A stretch of 64,000 nt of DNA from Streptomyces sp. NBC_00236 (GTDB taxonomy: Bacteria; Actinomycetota; Actinomycetes; Streptomycetales; Streptomycetaceae), in assembly GCF_036195045.1 (NCBI RefSeq), contig NZ_CP108100.1, forward strand, positions 3,720,001 to 3,784,000. Reading direction: 5' to 3'. Made by a program: the position numbers and the translations under genes. The notes under the pieces are model-generated. The model was given only the letters and a program-made list of their open reading frames with translations, was not told the DNA's origin and made no database searches. This document shows positions 15,446 through 17,629 of this stretch, one piece after another. Numbering within the stretch: the stretch's first letter is position 1; the number at the start of each line of letters is the position of its first letter.

Positions 15446-16327
15446 TCAGGAGAGTTGGAGAAGACCGCGGAGCAGATCCCTGCTCTCCTCCGGCCCCGGG
15501 CTGTCGGCATGGAGCCGGACCATCGCCTTTTCGTACTGGGCGACTTCTTCTGCCTTGTCCAGATAGAGCGCACTTGTCAGCTGCTCCAAATAGACAATGT
15601 CCGACAGATCGGATTCCGGGAATCGCAGCATCGTAAAGGAACCGCTCTCGCCCGCATGCCCACCGAAACTGAAAGGCATGACCTGGAGCGTGATGTTCGG
15701 CCGTTCCGACATTTCGATCAGATGGCGCAATTGGGTGCGCATCACTTCCCGGCCGCCGTACGGGCGGCGCAGCGCCGCCTCGTCCAGTACGGCGTGGAAG
15801 CGGGGGGCCCGTTCGGACACAAGGGCTTTCTGACGTTCCAGCCGGAGCGCGACCCGGCGGTCGATCTCGGCGGCGGGAGCACCCCGCATGCCCCGCGAGA
15901 CGACCGCGTGCGCGTAGTCCTCGGTCTGCAACAGGCCGTGAACGAACTGGACTTCGTAGATCCGGATGAGCGAGGCGGCGCCTTCCAGGCCGATGTACGT
16001 CTGGAACCAGCCGGGCAGCACATCCCCGTAACTGTGCCACCAGCCCGTCACGTTGGCCTCACGCGCCAGGCCGAGCAGGGAGTCGCGCTCCGCCTCGTCC
16101 GTGACTCCGTAGAGCGTGAGCAGGTCCTCGACGTCCCTGGCCTTGAAGCTCACCCGTCCCAACTCCATGCGGCTGATCTTCGATTCGGAAGCCCGGATGG
16201 AGTAGCCGGCCGCCTCGCGCGTGATGCCGCGTGAGTCCCGCAGCCGCCTCAGCTGCGAGCCCAGCAGGATGCGCCGCACCACGGATCCACTCGACTCGCC
16301 TGCCGCCACCGGTCCAACCCTCCCCAT
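15446..16327 (-). CDS. XRE-type helix-turn-helix regulator with DUF5753 domain
   Basis: A 293-residue DNA-binding protein of the WhiJ/BldB-associated type abundant in Streptomyces. The N-terminal HTH spans about residues 20-75 (LGSQLRRLRDSRGITREAAGYSIRASESKISRMELGR). The rest is a DUF5753 domain, recognisable from WWHSYGDVLPGWFQTYIGLE and FVHGLLQTEDYA. ATG 16327 has AGGAAG upstream. Such regulators usually work with a small DUF397 protein and an ATPase of the anti-sigma type. Both are encoded nearby (16640-17161 and 17282-17524), each preceded by the same 32-nt element. These sets influence development and antibiotic production in other strains; the role here is inferred. Confidence 0.9.
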   Translation of the reverse strand: MGRVGPVAAGESSGSVVRRILLGSQLRRLRDSRGITREAAGYSIRASESKISRMELGRVSFKARDVEDLLTLYGVTDEAERDSLLGLAREANVTGWWHSYGDVLPGWFQTYIGLEGAASLIRIYEVQFVHGLLQTEDYAHAVVSRGMRGAPAAEIDRRVALRLERQKALVSERAPRFHAVLDEAALRRPYGGREVMRTQLRHLIEMSERPNITLQVMPFSFGGHAGESGSFTMLRFPESDLSDIVYLEQLTSALYLDKAEEVAQYEKAMVRLHADSPGPEESRDLLRGLLQLS

Positions 16328-16639
16328 CGCTTCCTGGACATCGGGGTCCCCCCGAACCCCAAGAGCCGGATTCTGCCATCAAAACGCTTCAGCCCGTACT
16401 CATTCGATTACGGAAATGAGAAGACTTCCCGAAGGTCCAGAAACTCCGCACAGGAAGAAATGAGCAAGAACCGGCACGGTATCGGACAGGTCAGGCGCGT
16501 GCACGTGCATCTGCCCTTGCATCTGCTCTGCGCATTCGGAACCATGGGCCTCGCGCACCTGCGTGCTCGTTCGTGTTGTGCCGCTGTACCCGCGTACCCG
16601 CAGTACCGATTACAGCCGCGATTCTCGGGAGTGCCTCGC
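16328..16639. other. intergenic region between the XRE and ATPase genes
   Basis: A divergent promoter region of 312 bp. It holds copy 1 of the 32-nt element (16497-16528). An ATG at 16460 with AGGA upstream opens a frame into the ATPase gene, but the extension is not conserved-looking. Nothing else is recognised. Confidence 0.5.
16497..16528 (+). promoter_or_regulatory. 32-nt regulatory element, copy 1
   Basis: Begins GCGTGCACGTGCATCTGCCC and continues TTGCATCTGCTC, with a hexamer-phased TGCAYS pattern. It is repeated with two mismatches, in the same orientation relative to its gene, upstream of the DUF397 gene. Confidence 0.7.
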
Positions 16640-17161
16640 ATGGGGACGAATGGATCGACGATGCTCGAGCCGTTACGGCAGGGGCTCCCCCCCATCGACC
16701 CCTCCGCCGTCTCCGGATCAGCCACCTGCGCCCTGCCCGCTCGTTACGAAGCCGTCGGCGGGGCAAGGCAGTTCACCCGGACGACCCTGAGCGGCTGGGG
16801 CCTGAACGAGCGCTTCGACGACGTCGCCCTGGTCGTGTCCGAGCTGGTCACCAACGCCCTGCGGCACGCCCTGCCCACCGACGCGCCGCGCGAGCCCCAG
16901 GACCCGCCGGTCCGCCTGCACCTGATGCGCTGGACCTCGCGGCTGGTGTGCGCGGTGCGCGATCCCAGTCAGGCGAGCCCCGTCGCGTCCGAGGCCGAGG
17001 ACTCTGCGGAGTCGGGCCGCGGGCTCTTCCTGGTGGACTCCTTCAGCGACTGCTGGGGCTGGCACCCTTCACCCGTATGGACGACGGGGAGCGCCGTCAC
17101 CGTGCCGGCGCCGCGCGGAAAGGTCGTCTGGGCACTCTTCCGGCTGTCCGAACCGGCCTGA
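16640..17161 (+). CDS. ATP-binding protein, serine kinase/anti-sigma type (HATPase)
   Basis: A 173-residue single-domain GHKL ATPase related to SpoIIAB/RsbW. The N-box is intact (VVSELVTNALRHAL) and the G-box region reads ESGRGLFLVDSFSDCWGW. Such proteins bind and phosphorylate anti-anti-sigma factors or hold sigma factors, but most Streptomyces copies are orphan regulators of unknown partner. I chose ATG 16640 with GGGAGT 8 nt upstream; homologues start MGTNGSTMLEP. An ATG at 16460 is the longer alternative. It forms a set with the XRE/DUF5753 and DUF397 genes. Confidence 0.87.
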   Translation: MGTNGSTMLEPLRQGLPPIDPSAVSGSATCALPARYEAVGGARQFTRTTLSGWGLNERFDDVALVVSELVTNALRHALPTDAPREPQDPPVRLHLMRWTSRLVCAVRDPSQASPVASEAEDSAESGRGLFLVDSFSDCWGWHPSPVWTTGSAVTVPAPRGKVVWALFRLSEPA

Positions 17162-17281
17162 CACCGGAACAGGCACGGAACAGGCGCGCCGCACGTGCAC
17201 GTGCGGCGCGCGCGGGCACATGTGCGGCGCGCGGCCCCCGCATGACGCGCCGGAAGAAAGCGCTCACGCCTCCGCTATCGC

Positions 17282-17524
17282 TCACGCCTCCGTTACGAGG
17301 TGGTCGAACTCGCCGTCCTTCACGCCGAGCAGCAGAGCCTCTATCTCCGCGGGCGTATAGACCAGCGCCGGCCCGTCGGGGTAGCGCGAATTGCGCATCG
17401 CCACATCACCGTCGGGCAGCTTCGCGAACTCCACGCAGGATCCCTGGGAGTTGCTGTGCCTGCTCTTCTGCCAGACGACTCCGCGAAGCTCTGTGGCCGC
17501 CATGCCGTTGTACACGTGGTGCAC
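17282..17524 (-). CDS. DUF397 domain protein
   Basis: A small protein (80 residues from GTG 17524) of a family usually found beside XRE/DUF5753 regulators, where it acts as a partner or antitoxin-like modulator. The domain is clear: VVWQKSRHSNSQGSCVEFAKLPDGDVAMRNSRYPDGPALVYTP is its core, followed by a short helix. GTG 17524 has GGGGAG upstream; ATG 17503 is another possible start. Upstream lie a TTGACA hexamer, a TTGCA/TGCAA inverted repeat and copy 2 of the 32-nt element. Confidence 0.87.
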   Translation of the reverse strand: MHHVYNGMAATELRGVVWQKSRHSNSQGSCVEFAKLPDGDVAMRNSRYPDGPALVYTPAEIEALLLGVKDGEFDHLVTEA

Positions 17525-17540
17525 AGGACGCTCCCCGAGT

Positions 17541-17553
17541 TGCAAAGTGCAAG
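17541..17553. promoter_or_regulatory. small inverted repeat in the DUF397 promoter
   Basis: TTGCAAAGTGCAA is a 5-bp inverted repeat with a 3-nt centre. It lies just downstream of a minus-strand TTGACA hexamer and close to the start codon. Confidence 0.4.
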
Positions 17554-17597
17554 TGTCAACTGTCTCGGATCATAGCTGTGTTCAATTTCTGGTGCAT

Positions 17598-17629
17598 GAG
17601 CGGATGCATGGGCAGATGCACGTGCACGC
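17598..17629 (-). promoter_or_regulatory. 32-nt regulatory element, copy 2
   Basis: Read on the minus strand it begins GCGTGCACGTGCATCTGCCC, identical to copy 1, and continues ATGCATCCGCTC with two differences. It lies 74 bp upstream of the DUF397 start. Confidence 0.7.

Follow-up and report, generated by a model that had tools for sequence, protein, structure and literature searches.

A 32-nt element stands twice in the DNA of Streptomyces sp. NBC_00236, once before an AbaA-like HATPase gene and once before a BldB-like DUF397 gene, and is predicted to be the operator through which the neighboring WhiJ-like XRE/DUF5753 regulator (15446-16327) governs these two partners. We put the probability of this reading at about 0.85. 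The two copies are very probably private binding sites of the regulator, because they are kept across the genus and change with the DNA-reading helix of the protein. A palindromic head, TGCACGTGCA, runs into tandem 12-bp units of the form TGCAYNTGCNNN. Two of them stand before the HATPase gene and, before the DUF397 gene, three, of which the third is degenerate; a unit near the promoter probably overlaps the -35 region. Positions are those of the window, the whole stretch of 64,000 nucleotides that was analysed (Table 1); locus and genome handles in brackets are our own.

The genome is a single contig of 8.33 Mb and the set consists of the XRE/DUF5753, HATPase and DUF397 genes. Copies A and B agree at 30 of 32 positions, as the preliminary description had it, and the first 20 positions are identical; both are oriented towards their downstream genes. 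A search of the window for the 20-mer with up to 3 mismatches gave 2 sites; the expected mean was 0.05, and none of 100 shuffled sequences reached 2. In the whole genome, the pattern TGCACGTGCATSTGCMN{0,4}TGCA matched copies A and B only (reversed control, 0), and the 19-base form of the 32-mer had no other match. Five further TGCACGTGCA words each overlap long open frames and have no second box; we rejected them as extra targets and read them as chance occurrences.

The core contains a perfect 10-bp palindrome that runs into a 12-bp tandem unit. The preliminary description has neither of these, nor the third unit of copy B, which extends beyond the 32-nt element. The same letters can be viewed as two TGCANNTGCA boxes 18-19 bp apart, the second over a putative -35-like hexamer, with further units in copy B. 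The proposal that hexamers repeat on one helix face is wrong, since at 10.5 bp per turn a step of 6 bp rotates by about 206 degrees and one of 12 bp by about 51 degrees.

Table 1. Genes, candidate operator copies and putative promoter elements of the set (window positions).
Feature	Position	Strand	Basis or remark
WhiJ-like regulator, 293 aa	15446..16327	-	PF13560 (HTH_31, XRE) 2e-15; PF19054 (DUF5753) 3.4e-60
Probable XRE recognition helix, about residues 48-55 (ESKISRME)			AlphaFold helices 37-43, 48-55; block pLDDT 83-94, residues 21-60
Candidate operator copy A	16497..16528	+	GCGTGCACGTGCATCTGCCCTTGCATCTGCTC; upstream of HATPase gene
Palindromic box TGCACGTGCA of copy A	16500..16509	.	invariant in 107 sites
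Two 12-bp tandem units TGCATCTGCCCT TGCATCTGCTCT	16506..16529	+	sequence
Putative -35-like hexamer TTGCAT	16517..16522	+	overlaps second unit; offset 17-22; 17 nt before -10-like hexamer
-10-like hexamer AACCAT, HATPase promoter	16540..16545	+	weak match; offset 40-45; overlaps GGAAC 16538-16542
AbaA-like HATPase (anti-sigma-type), 173 aa	16640..17161	+	PF13581 8.6e-12; 45.6 bits vs cut-off 27.4
In-frame TTA (bldA-type), codon 12 of HATPase gene	16673..16675	+	sequence
BldB-like DUF397 protein	17282..17503	-	PF04149 1.5e-19; 70.3 bits vs cut-off 24
-10-like hexamer TATGAT, DUF397 promoter	17569..17574	-	sequence
Three 12-bp tandem units in copy B, TGCATCTGCCCA TGCATCCGCTCA TGCACCAGAAAT	17585..17620	-	sequence
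Palindromic box TGCACGTGCA of copy B	17617..17626	.	sequence
Candidate operator copy B	17629-17598	-	GCGTGCACGTGCATCTGCCCATGCATCCGCTC; upstream of DUF397 gene

The XRE and HATPase genes are divergent, with copy A between them, and the HATPase and DUF397 genes are convergent. Both PF13560 and PF19054 score above cut-off in the regulator; with the adjacent HATPase gene and the nearby DUF397 gene this gives the make-up of a whiJ-like set. The genome has 24 DUF5753 matches. Residues 48-55 form the third helix in the AlphaFold model of the regulator (mean pLDDT 79.7). Foldseek gave no match to this model below E 0.001; the nearest solved folds of the HTH were mostly XRE-type HTH domains, C proteins included, with weak E-values (best 0.003), and among proteins of solved structure no relative of the whole protein turned up by sequence at E up to 0.01. 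Of 80 loci looked at, the start of the HATPase gene was recognised in 70, and 69 of these have the TTA codon. This suggests bldA dependence of the HATPase partner.

Several other stretches of the locus are conserved or structured. From the DUF397 promoter to the ATG at 17503 (17503-17560) the sequence is conserved; because conservation continues upstream of 17503, the true start of the DUF397 gene may lie further upstream, up to 17545. In the spacer that separates copy A from the XRE gene lies another conserved block (16370-16415), about 80 bp from the operator and possibly the XRE promoter on the minus strand. The convergent HATPase/DUF397 spacer contains a perfect 28-bp palindrome (17184-17211), possibly a two-way terminator, whose middle (GCACGTGCACGTGC) resembles the operator head. 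Some Streptomyces loci (L096:2558-2577, L151:3300-3319 and similar ones) have GGCCATGCACGTGCACTGGCC in this spacer as a third palindromic head.

Conservation beside orthologous XRE-DUF397 sets was one of the points on which the preliminary description had made its proposal depend, and it was strongly borne out. Of 392 Streptomyces genomes, counting our own, 387 contain the 15-mer core TGCACGTGCATSTGC, mostly once per strand; the reversed 15-mer gave 40 matches in 39 genomes. The five genomes without it (G037, G096, G121, G156, G359) all encode an XRE orthologue of 69-89% identity, and beside it lies a site that is one base off (L137-L141). The XRE protein served as the only query for another set of loci, the best 80 among 493 relatives (85-99% identity); in 79 of them the 24-mer of copy A, TGCACGTGCATCTGCCCTTGCATC (from 16500), was exact, and in one it had one mismatch. 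Thirty loci fetched by the bare 15-mer all had at least one gene of the set, and 26 had all three with the XRE protein at 70% identity or more. Aligned copy-A sites (107, from 110 loci with three dropped) showed a 24-nt block with 23 invariant columns and one at 1.92 bits; 27 of these sites are not independent of the 15-mer because they were fetched by it. Among 104 copy-B sites TGCACGTGCAT is invariant and the remainder looser, in an ungapped scoring that mixes two length classes. Copy A is also the longest run (24) of columns of at least 98% in the alignment of the XRE-HATPase spacer (81 rows). Kinship among the genomes makes these large counts weigh less than their face value.

Beyond the genus, we searched a class-level sample of 197 genomes, 66 of which encode a homologue of the XRE protein. 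The two-box pattern TGCACGTGCAN{8,9}TGCANNYGC occurred in 33 genomes, 30 of the 66 with an XRE homologue versus 3 of the 131 without (Fisher 6e-14, kinship ignored). Streptomyces account for 13 of the 30, ours included. The pattern was absent from 36 XRE-bearing genomes, of which three are Streptomyces; the exact two-box form is therefore not universal. Fifty-four of the 58 places lie within 2.5 kb of an XRE homologue (seven pairs among the 58 share one palindrome read in both directions); the reversed control gave 11 matches. Around the remaining four there was no XRE, HATPase or DUF397 similarity, and we read them as chance, three lying in long open frames and one being a plain 12-bp repeat. 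The palindrome TGCACGTGCA was present in 30 of 39 fetched loci (37 outside Streptomyces and two of deep branches within it), with 38 sites in 260 kb versus 2 for the control word. One locus (L210) has two consecutive DUF397 genes with TGCA-YR-TGCA boxes in front of each. In another (L214, genome G088) the HATPase similarity is split into two pieces about 300 bp apart, and the gene may be interrupted or frameshifted.

The element keeps a fixed place in both promoters. In the 107 copy-A sites A40, A41, A44 and T45 are invariant at a fixed distance. We considered the ATG at offset 44 as a conserved start codon or leader peptide and rejected it; in a sample of loci the downstream frames were not conserved and often had stops, and for this reason the region is read as a promoter. 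The GGAAC that overlaps the -10-like hexamer is found in 71 of 79 loci and could belong to an ECF-type promoter instead; CGTC 14-18 nt after GGAAC was found in 0 of the 79. For copy B, we measured the distance from the head to TATGAT in 116 non-duplicate sites (123 before removal; six further loci gave no TATGAT). It was 40 in 86 sites, 41 in 5, 52 in 20, and 53 and 76 in 1 each, together 113 of the 116, and 38, 39 and 42 in one site each. On these distances, the copy-B site lengthens for the most part in whole units of 12 bp and keeps its position with respect to the -10. Copy B of the window is the long form, 52 nt from its -10, and most relatives are one unit shorter (40 nt). A similar -35/-10-like spacing is seen in other families, where YATNAT follows the start of box 2 by 22/23 nt in 16 of 47 rows (25 loci), as compared to 1.0 expected in total from shuffles.

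The view that no operator of this form had been published proved incomplete. In S. venezuelae, WhiJ9 recognises three direct repeats (consensus CGXXCTCAAC; measured by SPR, DR3 being critical) (PMC10294661), though their sequence and pitch differ from those seen here. WhiJ9's was the one operator sequence found in a literature search for WhiJ-like sets. Both systems place tandem direct repeats, here 12-bp units, beside a WhiJ paralogue with an XRE HTH and a BldB paralogue. However, CGXXCTCAAC differs from the 12-bp TGCAYNTGCNNN with its palindromic head, and the WhiJ9 site lies 113 bp upstream of the start of the one target studied, whereas here the element lies over the putative -35 of two targets. 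Four genomes (L242-L245) have three copies of CGNNCTCAAC at 10-bp pitch ahead of an XRE-like gene; judging by the consensus, this is probably the WhiJ9 site. The product of that gene is 28-32% identical to the XRE protein of our set. WhiJ9 is required for iosA activation in a bldB mutant, and BldB and BldB9 hetero-oligomerise (PMC10294661). Computed palindromic motifs of XRE regulators have been sorted into 223 clusters (PMC12565409), also with palindromes upstream of XRE genes; words beginning TGCA, DUF5753 and DUF397 are absent from the main text of that paper, the motif list of which is a supplement. A literature search for the string TGCACGTGCA gave no title on an actinomycete regulator among the matches listed. 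SCO1979 is said, in work attributed to Zhu et al. 2020, to bind upstream of its own gene.

Gene make-up and the TTA codon suggest that our set is the SCO3421 group, with SCO3421 as the presumed orthologue of the regulator. This group is found in nearly all complex actinomycetes and likewise combines an XRE/DUF5753 protein, an anti-sigma-like HATPase with a TTA codon in its gene and a small DUF397 protein (PMC4255298, Chandra and Chater); the available part of that paper gives no operator and describes WhiJ targets as unknown. The comparison with toxin-antitoxin sets in the preliminary description is not supported: overexpression of 14 DUF397 paralogues of S. coelicolor was without clear toxicity (PMC10364602, whose table of pairs does not list SCO3421). 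Nor do the genes form one operon, the HATPase gene sitting between those for the XRE and DUF397 proteins.

As to mechanism, we infer that the regulator would bind the head first and then fill the units towards the promoter, which would lead to joint control of the AbaA-like (HATPase) and BldB-like (DUF397) partners and of almost nothing else. By analogy with WhiJ9 and BldB, it would activate from a position touching the -35; on our analysis activation has a little over even odds against repression. In turn, the DUF397 product may counteract the regulator, which would make a negative feedback loop; BldB likewise appears to restrain WhiJ9-driven iosA (PMC10294661).

The same regulator on the same operator could instead be a plain repressor, shutting both promoters by covering their -35s until displaced by a signal or by the DUF397 protein. 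We hold this to be a serious reading that falls somewhat short of an even chance. The overlap of a unit with the -35-like hexamer speaks for such a repressor. Against it, the two promoters seem weak (the -10 of copy A is AACCAT), in keeping with activation. The literature points both ways. WhiJ is thought to repress development until a DUF397-type partner relieves it (PMC4255298), and the whiJ9 transcript rose two-fold on loss of WhiJ9, consistent with autorepression; in the same work, however, iosA is activated by WhiJ9, and neighboring WhiJ proteins are speculated to drive those abaA paralogues that are upregulated in a bldB mutant (PMC10294661).

A two-step switch would join both actions, a dimer on the head activating and a second complex over the -35 repressing at a higher level. 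C proteins are short, HTH-only proteins. For one of them, C.Esp1396I, a high-affinity distal site and a low-affinity proximal site divide the work between activation and repression (PMC4041747). The head upstream of the putative -35 and the second box 18-19 bp on, over it, are compatible with this OL/OR type of arrangement of distal and proximal symmetric boxes read by an XRE-fold HTH. C proteins are moreover among the nearest solved folds of our HTH, but that similarity is weak and concerns the HTH. These controllers have no DUF5753 and no multiplying 12-bp units, whereas the units of site B multiply, which a two-site switch does not need, and the 293-aa XRE/DUF5753 protein here has HATPase and DUF397 neighbors in place of a restriction-modification locus. 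We consider such a switch unlikely. Activation by the regulator filling its units from the head remains the reading that we prefer.

The identity of the protein that reads the element was addressed by comparing box and helix over loci with a recognised HATPase or DUF397 neighbor, each counted once. Ile-type helices (S-x-S-K-Ile, residue 51) went with TGCA-CG-TGCA in 33 of 33 loci, whereas Met-type helices (S-E-S-K-Met) had a CG box in 1 of 8 and CA, TG or TA centres in 8 of 8. A CA or TA box stood beside the CG box in 8 of the 33 Ile loci, and one Met locus (L289) also has one CG box. The XRE tree, several backbone forks of which are weakly supported, has Met at separate points, namely a seven-member clade (f19), L180 (f8) and the orphan L203; the 33/33 and 1/8 counts are therefore not independent and come down to two independent evolutionary changes with a readable operator. 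L180 is the sister of L200, which is of Ile type with CG and from the same genome (G398), so that CG-type and TA/TG-type sets coexist. Between L187 (CG) and L180 (TA/TG), only residues 43 and 51 differ within residues 40-60. Residue 51 is probably a core position of the helix, as in a 434-type HTH, and because of this it may be a marker rather than a contact.

Loci with an S-H-A-K-Ile (SHAKI) helix are mixed, with CG in 2 of 6 (L196, L205). Another of this type (L206) has TGCACTCGCA-N8-TGCATCTGCA, and in three more (L142-L144) the DUF397-HATPase interval holds 12-bp units GTTCTTGCATNN, between four and six of them and in part degenerate, and no palindrome. In two of these (L143 and L144, about 2870-2950, XRE gene on the minus strand) about six such units, some degenerate, stand in tandem with no palindromic head. 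Two adjacent perfect GTTCTTGCATNN units were found in 4 of 199 Streptomyces genomes.

An operator centre that varies with the XRE helix very probably points to the neighboring XRE protein as the binder. Together with the conservation, this covariation bears out the earlier proposal of a specific operator, here a predicted one, common to both promoters of the set. If the XRE protein reads this centre, a Met-type protein as in L180 would prefer its own, TGCATATGCA. That the element is bound by another regulator and not by the neighboring XRE protein seems to us very improbable. SigE is reported to bind at SCO3423 and SCO3424, presumed orthologues of genes of this set (PMC10771440, PMC6767563), which implies that other factors act on the set, but the SigE site listed there at SCO3424 has a sequence different from the element. 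Against a foreign regulator stand the change of the centre with the XRE helix and the number of sites, which is two in most genomes; in the loci examined the sites lie at this set. XRE genes with no recognised HATPase or DUF397 neighbor (L189, cut by its contig, L191, L203 and L207) show no box. Chance duplication or local gene conversion with no function, which two copies 1.1 kb apart might bring to mind, has practically no probability left, being refuted by the conservation across the genus and in other families with a gap between the copies that ranges from 973 to 1658 bp.

The palindrome was found in 0 of 20 paralogue loci of the own genome. A survey of the same loci for tandem repeats gave nothing else convincing; it is limited because at L011, L012, L016 and L017 the alignments lack the N-terminus and the scan was off the gene start. 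A 10-bp triple repeat at L004 was considered as a second example and rejected, since it is not kept in 28 orthologues (low column identity; a pair in two).

More generally, regulators of the WhiJ family might polymerise on arrays of fixed pitch from a palindromic nucleation site. In our set, with its pitch of 12 bp, promoter output would be tuned by a heritable unit number (2, 3, up to 5), and residue 51 (Ile/Met) would set the central bases and so insulate paralogues from one another. We offer this tentatively and rate it well below even odds.

WhiJ-like sets are among the strongly multiplied regulatory cassettes of Streptomyces. For one widespread set, these results give a predicted, very strongly conserved operator and name its two targets. 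They tie letters of the operator to a residue of the helix and offer natural length variants. With these, the role of WhiJ-AbaA-BldB triads and the way in which paralogues avoid cross-talk become directly testable.
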